Assembly (NCBI GenBank): GCA_947568835.1
Contig: OX387602.1
Span: 2,202,570 to 2,266,569 of the forward strand
Length of the DNA: 64,000 nucleotides
Direction: 5' to 3'
Origin: Protonemura montana
Taxonomy: Eukaryota > Arthropoda > Insecta > Plecoptera > Nemouridae
Below are positions 3,791 through 54,079 of the stretch, piece by piece (positions within the stretch are counted from its first letter, which is position 1; every line of letters begins with the position of its first letter). The notes below the pieces were generated by a model, which saw only the letters and a program-made list of their open reading frames with translations, searched no databases and was not told the origin of the DNA. The translations under genes were made by a program, and so were the position numbers.

Positions 3791-6230
3791 TTAGATATCC
3801 TGTATCCTGGAAATTGAGCAGATCAATAGATTATTGTGTGTCGCGTGGAACAGATGAGACGCGGTGGAAATGAGGGGGGGTCTGAAGAGGCTGCGTGCTG
3901 GGGAGGTTGTATGCAGGGGAGGTTGCCCCCAGGGGGATTATGCGATTCAATTGATGTCGCGAGCTCAAATTATTTGAAATCCATACTTCTCAAAGAAGAC
4001 CAATTTGCAGTTTTGCAATGCAAACTTGGCCTTTTAACTATTTTCCATTGTTCATCACAATGTCAAGCTTAATTTGAGATTTGTGGAAGCTCGATGTACT
4101 TTATGCACTGCACTCAACACGAGCATTACTTTTTGCTGCTATAACACGAACCTACTTTGGTACTTTAGGTGGACAAGTATTGTTTAGCTGGCACTCCACC
4201 CCCGCGTACTACCAGCGTACTACCTGTAGGACTGTTGTGCTGGTGATTACTGGAAATTGTGATGTTCGCAGCTGTGAAGAGAGCGTGGCGATCGTGTGCC
4301 TGGTGCAGATAGATACTACTTGGATAGTGGGGGTGTTCTTCTTGTTGCTGGCTGCTGCAAACTCCCCACGGGCGACTATGTATCTTGCTACCCTACCATT
4401 ATCTCGGTCCACCCCCAACTCAGCTTCTACACAAACAGAGACCATGGTTGCTGGCAACCCCTCCGCTATATCCTAAAGTCTGCTGCAGAATAACCCATAA
4501 TATATACAACAAGAACATTAATTACAAATTCGGGAAGCCACGAAATTTTGCCGTTTAATGGTCTTTCTGTGTCCAATCATGTGATATATCGCACATGCGC
4601 CCCAGAGTCGTAACTAATCATAGATAATTGTTGGTTTCCTTGTAGTAATTGTATTCCTACTGACCCTCGGTATGAATGCGTGTGGTGTTTTTCCCGGGAT
4701 TGCCCTCTGCGCTGGTTTAGAGCTAATGTCGGCCACTTGAAACTTATTATACTGGTCAAGAGGAGATTGTGCCACCAATTGAGACACAAAAACGACCATT
4801 ATTCGATATTTCCAGAAAAGAGGGAAAATACGAAACGGTCTTGAGGTGACACTTAAGCCAGGCAGAAACTTTGAAACCTAAATTGCAGCCTTCTGTTAGT
4901 TCGCTGGTCCTTTTATTAATTTTTTTATTTCAAATGAACTTAATTTTTAGCTGTAGATCCATTCTGTTTACCAGTAACCACAGCGCAGCGCTGCATGCAA
5001 CCCACTTTTGCACAAAGCAAATTGATAATATTCATGGCTTTGATCAAGATTATTTAATTACTTATGTATATATACCTTGTCTTCTTCTATTTTCGAACTA
5101 CAACCCATAACAGTTGTTATCTAAATCTTCTGCAAAATAATCTCTTGCTTGGAAAATTAATCTAGTGGTAACCGCCACGCGCTTGAGGATCAATCTCACC
5201 CTTGAAGTGCACCCTAATTTGCTCTGATTTTATCGCCTAGTTATGATTAAGCAATTGGCCATGACGTCAGAGAGGCCCATAGATCTCCGCGCTATCAGAT
5301 CGCTTTGTTAATTTCATTGTGATGCAGATTTTTAATGAAAAGTCATCGATTTTATGTTGATTTCGTGGTCAGCAGCCATTCCAATTTCCCATTGAAAAAT
5401 ACTCTCCGCGTATATAAGAAGTTGTGTCCGGCATAACCGTTATCTTGGGCAACCACATCCCAAGTGGGCTGCAGTGCATATAATGGCATGCCACAGAGCC
5501 ATGCCGTCCGAGATCGATAGATTTGTCGGCACGCGAGGGGCACACTACGCGCCCAAATATCTGCCCGTGCTATCCGGCCGGTGAGATGTTCGCTACCCGA
5601 TAGAGAAATTATTGGAAGGCGCACAAAGTGGAAGCAGCTTTTATTGCAAATCTATACAAAGATAAACATTATATTATAAAAGGGCCATTTTGGGAGTTTC
5701 TCAGATAATTGTTTGAAAGTACACTGCAATGAGACGCTGTTTAGCTGTTTTAAATGTGTTAAGATCTTGTTGTGCATCTGTATGAAATGTTTTTCTAAAA
5801 CCCCATTTTAATTGATGAAATCCTGTGTTATGTTGTGTGACAACTGGAATTATGCAGCACAAAAACCATATGTCAAGCTCACGAAGGTAATGTTGTTTTC
5901 TGCTACAATTTCTCTGCGCTGTACCAGTGTGAAATGTGTTGTGCACAGGTGTGATTAAGTATATGTCCAGGCCATTACTTATTATTTTTTTTCATTATTA
6001 ATATTTGACACGTTTGATTGTGAAAAATCATAGTGACGTGCAAGGGAAGTCATTGACATAATGTATTCCATGTTTTGTTGGCGAAGGCTAGCCTCACACA
6101 ATGGCGACCAGCATGTGGTCTACACTTAGTTTATTTCGTTTATTTCCCTTCCTTTATTCAGCTAAGGTGACATTTTATTACTTAGCCACCGGAGGGTGAA
6201 AGGGCTGCTCTACGCTGAGCATGCATAAAT

Positions 6231-8420: not shown

Positions 8421-8826
8421 ATGTCACAAGGCCCGTGCCACGAGCTCATGCCACGAGCCCATGCCACGAGCCCATGCCACGAGCCCATAACACGAGCCCC
8501 ATGCCACGAGCCCATGCCACGAGCCCCATGCCACGAGCCCATGCCACGAGCCCATGCCACAAGCCCATGCCACGTGCCCCATGCCACGAGCCCATGCCAC
8601 GAGCCCATGCCACGAGCCCCATGCCACGAGCCCATGCCACGAGCCCATGCCACGAGCCCATGCCACGAGCCCCATGCCACGAGCCCATGCCACGAGCCCA
8701 TGCCACGTGCCCCATGCCACGAGCCCATGCCACGAGCCCATGCCACGAGCCCCATGCCACGAGCCCATGCCACGAGCCCATGCCACGAGCCCCATGCCAC
8801 GAGCCCATGCCACGAGCCCCATGCCA
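8421..8826. repeat. Minisatellite of 13-14-bp units (CATGCCACGAGCC)
   Basis: About 29 clear head-to-tail copies of a 13-bp unit, CATGCCACGAGCC, of which ten have one extra C and so are 14 bp. Degenerate units sit at the left edge. Variants include ATAACAC, CACAAG and two CACGTG units, and much of the array follows a 13+13+14 (40-bp) super-period. Because neither 13 nor 40 is a multiple of three and no unit has a stop in any phase, long open frames of 120-187 codons run through it on both strands. They give low-complexity peptides rich in Pro, His, Ala and Arg, or in Gly, Trp and His. I treat these as artefacts of the repeat, not genes. A GNC tract lies about 100 bp to the left. Confidence 0.95.
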
Positions 8827-48360: not shown

Positions 48361-49225
48361 TTCATCTGGAGCCAGTGCTGCACTCTAGCACGCCCCGCTC
48401 AAACACAACCCCATTGAAATCCTAGAAGCAGGAGATGATGGAGATCGAGCGAATTTTAAAACGTCTTGTGCAGCGCGTTGGGTTACCACACTTCAAACGT
48501 GAAAGGCGCGATTGGACTTTGACGTCGCATGTCTGTACGTATTGCATTAATGTGCAATGCCGTCGATCTTCTTGTGATGTTTAACCACTCAACTGCAAGG
48601 TGGACCATGGGGTGTTGCGGACCCTCTGACGTGTCTCAGGGATGAGTCTGGACTCTCATGGCTAGCTTTGCTTGCAACTGGCATCTCTGACGTCATCCCC
48701 CCACCCACCCACCCAACCCACCCACCTAGCAATCTCATCCTGTTGCGACGATCGCCATCGCCCAAGTTTCCTTTGGTTTTCAATCACATTTTGTGAGTTT
48801 TTTTCGACAAAAAGTCCAGGTTGAATCTCTGGCAGAGCAGGAACCCATATGAAAAAAGTTGATCTTCATATTGCGTTTAAGATGAACATAAAAGTTGAAA
48901 ACAAGGTATTTAATTTGAATTGCCAAGATTTCATTTTACATGATTTGATTGTTGTTGCATTGTTAAAAATGAATAAAAGCAAGTCCCCTTTGGCAATACG
49001 GCGCATGGTTTTCGAAAATACAAAAACAATCAAGCTGGGTTTTGAGAATGCAGCGATTCCGACCAATCGGGATTTAGCAAGAGGGATGTATGCTGAACGA
49101 AACTTGGATTGAAATTTGTCACATTTTTCTCTCTTCAGTTTTTGCTCAGCTCCATTTTAAGTGCAAACTTCTAGTTTGAGTTCTAAGACACATAGCCCAG
49201 GAGTAATAGCGATTTTTAGAGCCAT
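48361..49225. other. Left flank of the inverted-repeat element
   Basis: Holds an 87-codon plus-strand open frame (48849-49112) of ordinary AT-rich composition with no recognised domain. It is outside the element and shares no sequence with the right flank. Confidence 0.5.
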
Positions 49226-49229
49226 ACCT
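49226..49229. repeat. Left copy of putative target-site duplication (ACCT)
   Basis: ACCT lies directly outside the left terminus and is repeated in the same orientation directly outside the right terminus. A 4-bp match has about a 1 in 256 chance at a fixed position, so it supports but does not prove insertion. Confidence 0.55.
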
Positions 49230-50566
49230 AGACATGAATAGTGTCAAGCTGAATTTTGCAGGATATGTTCCTTACACCTCCCCTAACTTTGGCCAGAAAG
49301 TTGATAAAAATCTAACCATGGCGTCATTGTTTTCCACCCCTATTTAGGGGCGGCGTTGCTGAAATACGCCATTATTGGCGAAGATAAGGGAGGTATCGAA
49401 AAAGTTTCAACAGCAATGTTGTAGCTTATAAAATTACAAATCGAACAGTATCAATTACATTGCAAATATATTCAGGGGTGACCAAGATATTGCAGTTTAA
49501 AGATGACGTATTTTTTTGCATTTGCTTTTTCTGGGCTATCTCTTGGGTTTTGACTATAATATTTTTAGTTCTATCGACGAGGAAAGCTTTTTCAGTGTAA
49601 ATAATAAGTAAAAGTACATAGTTACGGCAGATTCCATTTTAGTAGCGTATAAAACATCCCAATAGAAACTCTAATAAAGGTGTATCGAACTAAACTATAT
49701 GATAAACTATATAATTGTGTTACAAAATCTATGGTTTTTATTTCCACTTTTGTGAGAAAAATCTCATGCAAATTGAATAGGAAGTGCTTTTATGTAGTCT
49801 CTTAGTTACAATGGTTTGTGTAGATATATTTAAACAATTTTTTAGGGATGATTGGCATGTATCGCCTTTAAACGTAAAACTATTCATACACAGAGCTGGA
49901 GTCAATATAAGCTGCAGGTTGCCAGCACATCTCTTGTACTTTCGATATTGGTCTAACTTTACATTTCGGTTCATCTCAGGGTCATTTTGGTCCTCTTTTA
50001 GTAAAATGTCGTTGTTGCACGTTGCACCGTTGCACTGGCTGCACATATGGGAGCAGCGTAATCCAGCTCGCACACAGCTGCACTTTCCACTGCACGATGT
50101 CTTGCAATTGTAGCTCACTACATTAAATAACTTATCGGGAGATGGCAGCTGCAGGGTTGGTACTGGATGAAGTTCTTCATTCTCCAGTTTCCATCCCCAG
50201 AGGGTGGCTGGAAGGTCATTCCCTCGCCACTGCTGCAGTGGGTGGTAGACACGGAAGGAATGTTGTCGCGCTGCAGCTGTTGTTGGCGGAAGGGTGGCCA
50301 AGTCGAAGTTGGAACTTAAAGCTTGCTTAGCCACCGTTCTCTTGTAGGATATTAACCTCAGCGCATCGAGGGATGTGGAGGTGGTGTCACCATTGAGAGC
50401 TATCGGGAACTCCTCCCCTACAGCAGCGATCATTTCTGCGTCAGCATCAGGAGAGTAAACACTTTTAAGGTTTGGCGCCGGCTTTTCTTCAGTGAAAAGA
50501 TCTTGAGCGTCTTTTTCTTGCCCCGAAGGAACAATGCGGAGGTGGTGTCACATTCTGAGACGGCAT
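49230..50566 (+). repeat. Left arm of the long inverted repeat
   Basis: Pairs with 50710-52045 on the opposite strand. The outer 500 bp is noncoding, AT-rich 3' sequence and the inner part is coding on the minus strand. Homology may continue past the inner edge: allowing a 6-bp gap, an ATTCTG block also matches. Confidence 0.95.
49737..49742 (-). terminator. Polyadenylation signal AATAAA (left copy)
   Basis: AATAAA on the minus strand overlaps the TAA stop codon of the left coding fragment. The mirror copy is at 51534-51539. Overlap of stop and signal fits a compact mobile-element gene. Confidence 0.45.
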
Positions 50567-50675
50567 GCATGAACAGAATGTGCTCGCGGTCGGCACCAAT
50601 TGCATCTTGGTGCACTGCTGCACTGCTGCTGGCGGCTGCTGCAGATCCTGACATGTTGATCATCAACACTGTCAT
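49738..50675 (-). pseudogene. C-terminal fragment of a CXC-domain protein of mobile-element type (left copy)
   Basis: Two frames make up the remnant. The first (50675-50430) starts in the spacer and reads GADREHILFMHAVSECDTTS followed by ALFLRGKKKTLK. The second (50433-49738, 231 codons) carries LPPT at residues 48-51, QHSFRVYH at 57-64, QQW at 67-69, WGW at 79-81 and eight cysteines at 110-139 spaced C-x3-C-x3-C-x-C-x6-C-x3-C-x2-C-x4-C. From memory, this order (GCDTTSA motif, LPPT, WGW, CXC domain) defines an expanded arthropod family whose N-terminal part resembles XPG/FEN-type nucleases; that part is absent here. The frames join through one frameshift near 50486-50515. The methionine opening the 231-codon frame is internal to the family, not a true start. 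Its role is inferred to be transposon-related and is unproven. Confidence 0.75.
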
Positions 50676-50709
50676 CTAAGAATCAAATGCTGGACGCCGT
50701 GTATTCTGA
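50567..50709. other. Unique spacer between the arms
   Basis: 143 bp not shared between the arms. Its left part, read on the minus strand, continues the coding frame into the GCDTTSA-like motif and gives an Ala/Ser-rich stretch (SAAAASSSAAVHQDAIGAD). The right part does not resemble the left copy after a short ATTCTG block. This asymmetry places the breakpoint of the inverted duplication inside or next to the motif. Confidence 0.8.
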
Positions 50710-51538
50710 ATGCCGTCTCAAAATGTGACACCACCTCCGCATTGTTCCTTCGGGGCAAGAAAAAGACGCTCAAGATCTTTTCACTGAAGAAAAGCCGGCG
50801 CCAAACCTTAAAAGTGTTTACTCTCCTGATGCTGACGCAGAAATGATCGCTGCTGTAGGGGAGGAGTTCCCGATAGCTCTCAATGGTGACACCACCTCCA
50901 CATCCCTCGATGCGCTGAGGTTAATATCCTACAAGAGAACGGTGGCTAAGCAAGCTTTAAGTTCCAACTTCGACTTGGCCACCCTTCCGCCAACAACAGC
51001 TGCAGCGCGACAACATTCCTTCCGTGTCTACCACCCACTGCAGCAGTGGCGAGGGAATGACCTTCCAGCCACCCTCTGGGGATGGAAACTGGAGAATGAA
51101 GAACTTCATCCAGTACCAACCCTGCAGCTGCCATCTCCCGATAAGTTATTTAATGTAGTGAGCTACAATTGCAAGACATCGTGCAGTGGAAAGTGCAGCT
51201 GTGTGCGAGCTGGATTACGCTGCTCCCATATGTGCAGCCAGTGCAACGGTGCAACGTGCAACAACGACATTTTACTAAAAGAGGACCAAAATGACCCTGA
51301 GATGAACCGAAATGTAAAGTTAGACCAATATCGAAAGTACAAGAGATGTGCTGGCAACCTGCAGCTTATATTGACTCCAGCTCTGTGTATGAATAGTTTT
51401 ACGTTTAAAGGCGATACATGCCAATCATCCCTAAAAAATTGTTTAAATATATCTACACAAACCATTGTAACTAAGAGACTACATAAAAGCACTTCCTATT
51501 CAATTTGCATGAGATTTTTCTCACAAAAGTGGAAATAA
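50704..51538 (+). pseudogene. C-terminal fragment of the same CXC-domain protein (right copy)
   Basis: Mirror of the left copy. The 231-codon frame (50843-51538) is identical residue for residue. The preceding frame reads ILNAVSKCDTTSALF, so the motif position that is Glu on the left is Lys here, and the sequence before ILNA is unrelated to the left copy. The same frameshift lies near 50761-50790. The cysteine region begins SYNC where family members, as I recall them, have Cys-x-Cys, so one cysteine is probably lost. No promoter or upstream exons are visible, so expression as a protein would need an outside promoter. Confidence 0.75.
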
Positions 51539-52045
51539 AAACCATAGATTTTGTAACACAATTATATGTTTATCATATAGTTTAGTTCGATACACCTTTA
51601 TTAGAGTTTCTATTGGGATGTTTTATACGCTACTAAAATGGAATCTGCCGTAACTATGTACTTTTACTTATTATTTACACTGAAAAAGCTTTCCTCGTCG
51701 ATAGAACTAAAAATATTATAGTCAAAACCCAAGAGATAGCCCAGAAAAAGCAAATGCAAAAAAATACGTCATCTTTAAACTGCAATATCTTGGTCACCCC
51801 TGAATATATTTGCAATGTAATTGATACTGTTCGATTTGTAATTTTATAAGCTACAACATTGCTGTTGAAACTTTTTCGATACCTCCCTTATCTTCGCCAA
51901 TAATGGCGTATTTCAGCAACGCCGCCCCTAAATAGGGGTGGAAAACAATGACGCCATGGTTAGATTTTTATCAACTTTCTGGCCAAAGTTAGGGGAGGTG
52001 TAAGGAACATATCCTGAAAAATTCAGCTTGACACTATTCATGTCT
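50710..52045 (-). repeat. Right arm of the long inverted repeat
   Basis: Reverse complement of the left arm and one base shorter. A transcript crossing both arms would fold into a hairpin of more than 1.3 kb. Confidence 0.95.
51534..51539 (+). terminator. Polyadenylation signal AATAAA (right copy)
   Basis: Overlaps the stop codon of the 231-codon frame, as in the left copy. Confidence 0.45.
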
Positions 52046-52049
52046 ACCT
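52046..52049. repeat. Right copy of putative target-site duplication (ACCT)
   Basis: Direct repeat of the tetramer outside the left terminus. With the element removed, the flanks would read ...CCATACCTCAAA..., one plausible pre-insertion site. Confidence 0.55.
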
Positions 52050-54079
52050 CAAACCTTATTATGCCTGGACTAACAATCGAATTAACCATAATAATAAAAG
52101 AGCGCGATTTAAGATTTGTTAAAAATGTCGGTTTCATGGATTTCTACAAGTTCCACGTTGAATCTAGCTTTAAGTAGATTCCCATGTTAATGGTGGGCGT
52201 TGTACAGAGAGTCCTTGGTAATGTCTAGACCGCATTACAGACGCCGGGGACAACAGAAGAGACGAACAATAGTTCTTATGACGCTGTTTGGTCCTCCTAA
52301 CAAATGGGTTATTGCAGTCGACGGGAGTCGTTACGATGATCAACTGTTGGTCGAAGTCGCGCGGCGAGCGATCACTGCAATGGTTCGTGCACAATCCACT
52401 GGAACTGCTATCTAGCTGGATTTACTAATTGACTTATATACAGAAAGGAATAGAAAACTTGGCGATTTTTCACTTTCAATATTTGTAAATGTCACAAAGA
52501 AAACAAGTTTGAACTGTGTAATGTAAAAAGTGCGGTCACTTTTGGTTTTGGAGTGCATTACAAGAACTGTCATATTAATCGAATGTTGTTAAAATCTTTG
52601 AAATACCAAACATCCACTCGACCATTCGCGTCCCCATAGGTAAAATTATCTTTCGCTTTAAATTATTTCCTCGACATCGCCACTGCGGCTGGTCAGAAAG
52701 TTTTTCGGCCGTTCACGGAAGTTGTACAGTAGCCGCACTTCGCTAATGACATAATATTCTTGGGGGAGTAATCAGCGTCGGAGCAGGTCATCTCGACGAC
52801 CTTCTCGGGGTAAACAACGTCTTCCCCGCCCATCCGCCCCGGCGCTCGCTCGCTCGCTCGCATGTCCCTAACAGGGCCTACACACGAGCGTCCCCAGCAA
52901 AGGGCCGTGTTTGCTCAAGTGTAGCCCCTTCTTCCCGTGTTCCCTACACAAGTCAATAACGCTGTGGCTATAATGGCGTTCCGTCCTCTTGGGACGCCGT
53001 CGGCCGCATGATACTACAGACATTAGAGGCGATCCCGTCGGCAACCCTGGCCCATGGCCGCTGTCGACGCCCGCTACGCAGCGCCAGTCGCGCGTACAGC
53101 GTAAATTAAGTGATTAACATGAGGTGTTAAGTATTGTAATGGCGTCCGTATAATGTGCTTTTTGGAAAAAAAGGAAAAATAACTCGTATTCATGATGAAT
53201 ATTTCATGGTGTTTTCCTGCGTTTACTAAAAATCTTCATTTGCGTGCGCCGGTCCCGAAAGAAGGGACATCATCTGGCATTGTACGAGCGTAATGGAGAA
53301 AATTAATGGATGAAACCGAAGTTGTTATGCGCTCGGAACCGTGGCAATGCTGTTTTCATCTTTGAAAACAAAGAACGCACAGAATTACAAGTAAGCAGGC
53401 GAAGAAATCAGCAACGAACATTAACTGAGGCCTACAGCAGGATAGCTAATACAAGCGGCCAACAAAAACAAGCTCTTTCGTCCTGGAAAATACGTTTTCC
53501 AGTAAAATAGCAAAACAGATCTAAGTGTTTCATATTGATGAAAGAAATCGTTGGCTGTCCAAACATGAGAGGATGAAGAAAGCGGGCCGGTGGGACAGAC
53601 GGGAGGAGAGAGAGAGAGCGATAGAGGGACTGAGAGCTGGTGAGGCCTGGACGTTGTGATACGGGGAAGGAGCAGAAGGCGAGGGTAGCTTGATCTCATT
53701 CAAAAATCTAAGCCTCAATCTCGCAATTTCCCATTATTGCACGTTGGAAAAGTTTTCGAGAGAGCCACTCAGATCCACGGGTGGAAAGAGAGGAGATGAA
53801 GAAATATTATCGAAAAGGTACACGAACAGAATCAAGGAAGAGAATGAAACAACTTCGGACGGGCAAGAGAAAAAAACTTATTAAAACATAGGCTTTCCAA
53901 AGTGGTGGCAAACACATCTCGGAAATGCTCCACTAAAAACAGAAGCTGCAGAGAACGTGCACGTAATATTATTTAGTGCTGGCCATTTTCTGGATCTGGC
54001 CGCGGGGATGAGGATGGATTTGGCAGAACCCATCGTCGGAGGGATTAAAGTGATTATTTTATTGTTTTCTAATTTGCTG

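Follow-up and report, generated by a model that had tools for sequence, protein, structure and literature searches.

A near-perfect inverted repeat in the genome of the plecopteran Protonemura montana raises three questions: where the element that carries it ends, to which group of DNA transposons it belongs, and how its arms came to be so long. The repeat lies in a stretch of 64,000 nucleotides, here called the window. The window copy is read as a non-autonomous DNA transposon, a fold-back derivative with recombining arms, descended from a 6.0-kb parent of the Academ-like (AcademX-type) kind; the probability of this reading is put at about 0.8.

Copies examined

The genome searched comprises 258 Mb in 34 contigs. 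One arm, used as the query, gives at least 61 matches. Thirty-one copies were examined: the window copy, 20 loci and 10 further loci, mostly best-scoring matches and a non-random sample. Both tips are present in 21 of the 31. One or both are missing within the fetched stretch in the remaining 10 (L011, L024, L025, L030, L031, L032, L035, L036, L037, L038). At least six places with arm matches were left out (C3:25483554, C15:1351149-1353586, C2:28126394-28128830, C11:8538671, C14:227139, C1:74331).

Structure of the window element

The element spans positions 49193-52072 (2,880 bp), and its first letters are TAG (Table 1). The long, near-perfect inverted repeat claimed in the initial annotation is real, with arms of ~1.34 kb that are 99.6% identical. 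An inverted-repeat search resolves the arms into perfect blocks of 861 nt and 479 nt with a one-base offset between the blocks. A single alignment of arm against arm gives 99.63% identity over 1,345 columns, with 3 mismatches and 2 gaps. Arms make up 2 x ~1,344 of the 2,880 bp, so that the element has the long inverted repeats of fold-back (FB-like) elements. At the settings used, no other inverted repeat reaching 100 nt was found in the whole window. Elsewhere in the window, positions 8421-8826 hold a tandem array of ~30 copies of a 13-bp unit, GCCCATGCCACGA.

Table 1. Parts of the window element, with positions in the window and counterparts in the full-length parent.
Feature	Position	Strand	Remarks
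Target duplication, left copy, ACA	49190..49192	.	3 bp; from flank comparison among copies
A tip, TAGCCCAGGAGTAATAGCGATTTTTAGAGCCATACC	49193..49228	+	36 bp; inner end is the first 3 letters of the left ACCT
Left arm	49229..50573	-	inverted 3' end of the parent, 5978 to ~4630
Open remnant of 269 codons in the left arm	49738..50547	-	C-terminal end of the parent protein (Cys-rich segment)
Spacer between the arms	50574..50703	+	130 bp
Right arm	50704..52046	+	3' end of the parent in natural orientation, ~4634-5978, 94.4%
Open remnant of 269 codons in the right arm	50729..51538	+	C-terminal end of the parent protein
B tip, CCTCAAACCTTATTATGCCTGGACTA	52047..52072	+	26 bp; short imperfect inverted match to the A tip
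Target duplication, right copy, ACA	52073..52075	.	3 bp

Read against the parent (F, positions in its 6,004 bp), the window copy consists of the A tip, F5978-4594 inverted, ~24 bp, F4395-4464 and F4634-6004. The match of the left arm to the parent extends to 4594, at 94.4%; the outer ~430 bp of this arm are also similar to the natural 5' terminal repeat of the parent. The spacer had been described as unique, but 70 of its 130 bp (50634-50703) match F4395-4464 in the parent gene (92.9%), after which the match jumps to ~F4634, and ~36 further bp continue the left-arm match. The spacer is therefore mostly gene-derived, and the right half of the element corresponds to the natural 3' end, from which a small piece is deleted. 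The gene content of the arms, first given as the 3' half of a gene, amounts to roughly the final seventh of the 1,470-codon frame of the parent and the sequence behind that frame. Both arm remnants read 76 codons beyond the frame stop of the parent. Pfam and PDB searches with the arm protein gave no match at E up to 1.

True ends and target site duplication

The initial annotation placed the outer ends at AGACATG and CATGTCT, and named homology running past AGACATG into the flanks as the observation that would speak against this placement. The letters are present, but homology passes AGACATG in 20 of 20 loci. Both tips are reached in 17 of them, and in three (L011, L024, L025) the B tip is the sole tip found. 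The real ends sit 33 and 23 bases outside the boundaries first read; measured from the arms, the distances are 36 and 26 bp. The two tips, A (36 bp) and B (26 bp), are fixed and differ from each other, although their outermost parts match imperfectly in inverted orientation over a short stretch (GCCCAGGAGTAATA / GTCCAGGCATAATA). A search of the genome at up to 3 mismatches found 30 A tips and 30 B tips, and 0 matches to reversed control patterns.

ACCT, first taken for a 4-bp target duplication, does flank both arms, but belongs to the tip sequence of the element, parent included. It is kept in 29 of the 30 A tips and 28 of the 30 B tips found by the same search. The empty site predicted from an ACCT duplication has 0 matches in the genome at up to 3 mismatches. 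Independent insertions carry, instead of an ACCT-type repeat, a duplication of variable sequence, 3 bp long (4 bp in two copies). With TA counted inside the element, the flanks match in 20 of 20 two-tipped copies, over 3 bp in 18 and over 4 bp in 2, the lengths expected for AcademX. In the control, the left flank of a copy matches the right flank of another copy in 58 of 380 comparisons. The inner tip pair of L022 is an extra row with mismatching flanks, is no insertion and stands outside the 20. The 21st two-tipped copy, on C15, has TAA on both sides (read by eye). The right end of L034 is CA rather than TA.

Two insertions, L018 and L028, have related empty sites. The joined flanks of L018 align with an unoccupied relative in L023 at 157 of 176 positions, through the joint, with a single AGA. 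Those of L028 align with empty relatives in L032 (253/295) and L031 (252/306); at the joint, TTG stands in place of TTA in L032, and L031 shows a small gap.

Full-length parent and its protein

The parent, at C2:14310660-14316663 (6,004 bp, spanning L033 and L029), has the A tip, 423-bp terminal repeats at 99.3% identity, the B tip and the duplication TTA. Its single open frame has 1,470 codons, counted from the first M. The central 820 aa of its protein, used as the query, gave one full-length match among the candidates scored in the genome. Between the parent and the window arms, 43-44 of ~782 sites differ. Given this divergence and the earlier frame stop of the parent, the mover of the window element may be another copy or may be gone.

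The sole Pfam match of the parent protein at E up to 1 is DUF6589, in its central part (E 3.4e-4, 19.9 bits, below the Pfam cut-off of 27). A whole-genome search with DUF6589 gave no match, nor did a search of 14 control genomes. Residues D439, D446, D605, E772, D846 and E850 are conserved in a 24%-identical relative (two-row alignment), and some of them are candidates for a DDD/E triad. In the C-terminal part the motifs VVDGGYLL, VVFDG, AADAD, GTDTDLLVLA and GCDTTSAL follow one another (read by eye), in the same order as in the host XPG_I gene L048, which is taken here for FEN1. The best PDB chain for the parent protein is RAD2, a weak match at E 0.47; hhalign of the parent against host FEN1 gives a probability of 1.5% and E 0.034 at partial coverage. 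The parent is not among the matches of a whole-genome XPG_I (PF00867) search at E up to 10. The XPG-like part is followed by a Cys-rich tail, CSCVRAGLRCSHMCSQCNGATC, presumably CXC-like, for which Pfam gave no CXC-type model. Pfam, PDB and NCBIfam searches with the parent protein and its distant relative gave weak or no matches. Six peptide patterns found no relative in IMG/VR viral contigs. The literature search returned no paper on Academ with a CXC domain and none on DUF6589.

Another, distantly related family, whose frame has 1,400 codons, is present at L039 1711-5913 (C16) and L043 (C1); its second copy is 99% identical and has one stop. The two other long matches of the genome to the central part of the parent protein, at 28%, belong to this family. 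Its protein and that of the parent align over 1,231 columns at 24% (E 4e-60), and the distant family is perhaps another Academ-like transposon.

Classification

Academ, one of the superfamilies named in the initial annotation, is the best match found for the parent, whose protein can be assigned to it putatively. The suggestion of a fold-back derivative was correct: the 3' end of the parent is inverted behind the 5' tip. Duplications of 3-4 bp and a putative nuclease fit the AcademX lineage. The accessible text of PMC10045372 gives duplications of 3 or 4 bp for AcademX and of 9 or 10 bp for AcademH, a length that, according to its authors, seems linked to the encoded nuclease and helicase. Academ is listed among 20 DDD/E superfamilies in an excerpt of PMC9587614. 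The likeness to AcademX lies in an encoded nuclease and duplications of 3 or 4 bp there (PMC10045372), and in duplications of 3-4 bp and XPG-like motifs, read by eye, here; in contrast, the window copy lacks the full gene and is a fold-back derivative.

The window element begins with TAG and has a 3-bp duplication, and was rejected as a Polinton/Maverick. Elements of that kind have a 6-bp duplication and ends beginning AG. At C15:811553-826039 (L040 254-701, L041 1-340) a fold-back copy is interrupted by an insertion of ~14.5 kb, Polinton/Maverick-like by its ends and size. Its duplication is CATGGC (6 bp), its ends are AGTAGGG...CCCTACT and its terminal repeats measure at least 340 bp (97%), as read at the edges.

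Fold-back types and their derivation

Alignments to the parent demonstrate, in several derivatives, a parental 3' end inverted behind the A tip. Such an inversion turns terminal repeats of 0.4 kb into fold-back arms of 0.7-1.4 kb. The type I junction pattern is that of the window copy, L009 (block-mapped) and L010 (placed by 2 differences from L009); the F4464/4624 joint of this type is also present in L011 and the C15 copy. Type II comprises L012-L016 and L018 (2,593 bp; L015, 2,572 bp), type III L019-L023 (2,586 bp) and type IV L026-L028 (2,938 bp). Block maps against the parent were made for L012, L019, L022 and L026, and other members were assigned by length and arm pattern. In types II, III and IV, inverted F4390-4455 adjoins F4521. 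The 3,427-bp L017 is a compound copy of the type II kind. In the type III fold-back L022 (2409-5685), a further 3' end (F5311-6004) follows in tandem behind the B tip; its outer tips are flanked by the 3-bp duplication TTA. The junctions of types I, II/III and IV differ, which suggests that fold-back happened three times, or less often with later remodelling.

L034 (1,811 bp) has both tips and no fold-back. Its A tip and F1-166 are followed by the 3' end and the B tip, and its internal inversion is that of types II-IV. This structure suggests that deletion came first and fold-back later. In L038 (573-2501), which has a large internal deletion (F2356-5264), the A tip lies on the 3' side of the gene, as if the whole interior had been flipped between the terminal repeats.

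L009 and L010 show 2 differences in 2,825 sites, and L026, L027 and L028 show 1-3 differences in 2,876 sites. Near-identical copies on different contigs indicate that the fold-back copies themselves moved recently, presumably driven by the protein of the parent.

The proposed course of events begins with a plain internal-deletion derivative. The transposase of a full-length copy would act on the shared tips and terminal repeats, and the units would move by cut-and-paste. Repair after excision would start in one terminal repeat, use the other as a template and run on into the gene, thereby extending the arm.

Recombination between the arms

With the interior of L019 (type III) reversed, its comparison with L012 (type II) gives 2,482 identical, 42 different and 7 gap columns; unreversed, it gives 1,909 identical, 555 different and 127 gap columns. 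The tips keep their places while the interiors match in reverse, which shows that the interior has flipped between the arms. One pair was compared in this way across types; orientation is the same within types (L012 vs L013, L016 and L018; L019 vs L020 and L021).

Arms were compared over 785 bp in 36 arms from 18 fold-back copies, together with the B arms of the parent and L034. The two arms differ at 1/784 sites in the window copy, at 18/785 in L009 and at 17/785 in L010. These three copies share a junction pattern, and equal arm divergence would be expected of them in the absence of exchange; the inequality suggests that one arm was converted by the other in the window line. Column 421 of type II is T or C by copy, with both arms alike in 6 of 6 copies. 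A rule that the arms of a copy are always alike is countered by L015, with 30 differing sites, mostly at the inner end of the shorter arm, and by type III, with 6-11 differing sites, some of them fixed by side. The flipped isomers and the homogenised arms show that sequence is exchanged between arms.

Alternative explanations

Tc1/mariner elements duplicate TA only, and TA flanks both sides in 19 of the 20 two-tipped copies, as it would if the element were a TA-duplicating (Tc1/mariner-like) one instead of Academ-like. Such an identity is very improbable, given that the 3-4 bases past TA match in all 20 (control 58/380), that at the best empty site (L023) the joint reads AGA once and contains no TA, and that the one Pfam match of the parent at E up to 1 is DUF6589. 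Equally hard to credit is a nested origin, in which a long-arm element (AGACATG/CATGTCT, with an ACCT duplication) inserted into a short-repeat element and the composite was multiplied by the outer one. This would account for the ACCT direct repeat at the arm borders and for outer sequence shared by 20 of 20 loci on at least one side. In the full-length parent, however, the border between these tips and the parent's own 423-bp terminal repeats falls at the same point; L034, which has no fold-back, keeps the tip-arm joints at identical points; an armless outer element has 0 matches in the genome; and each ACCT contributes one base to the inverted match. Long palindromes can arise as artefacts, and a palindromic chimera of assembly or library could imitate a fold-back copy, but several types, each represented by 3 to 6 copies that lie on different contigs or in different places and have matching flanks of 3-4 bp, make this the least probable of the alternatives, with only a minute chance of being right.

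A more serious competitor concerns the origin of the arms, which may have come from recombination between neighbouring copies in opposite orientation, or from a template switch during replication, and not from post-excision repair. Long inverted repeats are recombinogenic, and L022, with its second tandem 3' end, indicates that compound copies occur. Against it, the A tip is kept and everything inside the terminal repeat is replaced, an outcome that is simple under a repair switch within the repeat; a similar copying step is proposed by the Galileo authors in the accessible part of PMC3573991. Recombination or template switching is accordingly considered a possible but unlikely source of the arms, and post-excision repair within the Academ-like family is preferred.

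Comparison with known fold-back systems

Fold-back derivatives are already known; here they occur in an Academ-like family. In Galileo (P superfamily, Drosophila), according to the accessible text, terminal repeats were lengthened to 1,107 bp by internal sequence in inverted orientation, and measure 1,260 bp with tandem repeats included (PMC3573991). Chimeric copies are described there, recombination of long repeats is proposed, and copying from one repeat is proposed to continue into the interior (PMC3573991). The systems share the inverted recruitment of internal sequence into terminal repeats and recombination among long repeats, which for Galileo is a proposal (PMC3573991). Galileo differs in superfamily and transposase; a full-length open frame and flipped isomers are found in the present genome. 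Tm1 Mutator/Foldback of root-knot nematodes and Tetris of Drosophila virilis have, by the descriptions available, the same fold-back architecture in other families. A literature search with Academ and fold-back terms returned, among the matches listed, none that contains the word Academ.

Possible silencing of the parent

Fold-back copies might act as mobile, self-multiplying silencers of the parent, read-through transcription yielding hairpins of ~1.3 kb double-stranded RNA directed at the 3' end of the mRNA for the transposase. This idea, drawn from analogy, is speculative and improbable. As RNA, the 281-base spacer region folds with a z of -18 against 200 shuffles, as any palindrome would. 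For Mu killer of maize it is reported that a transposase gene duplicated in inverted form can silence its parent (PMC3440606). As far as the excerpt of that report goes, the likeness consists in a partial inverted duplication of a transposase gene, two copies of a terminal repeat and a proposed hairpin RNA (PMC3440606). Mu killer is one locus with a reported silencing effect, whereas the present copies are many and mobile. If true, the silencer reading could account for a single full-length copy alongside at least 19 fold-back copies with both tips.

Significance

The longest inverted repeat of an element may stop short of its ends, and duplications read at arm borders can mislead. Long arms are seen here to recombine inside single copies, and the extension of terminal repeats into fold-backs is seen in an Academ-like element. 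The coding parent, a simple deletion product, fold-back junctions of several kinds and both isomers of the flip occur together in one genome, so that the steps from parent to fold-back can be put in order.
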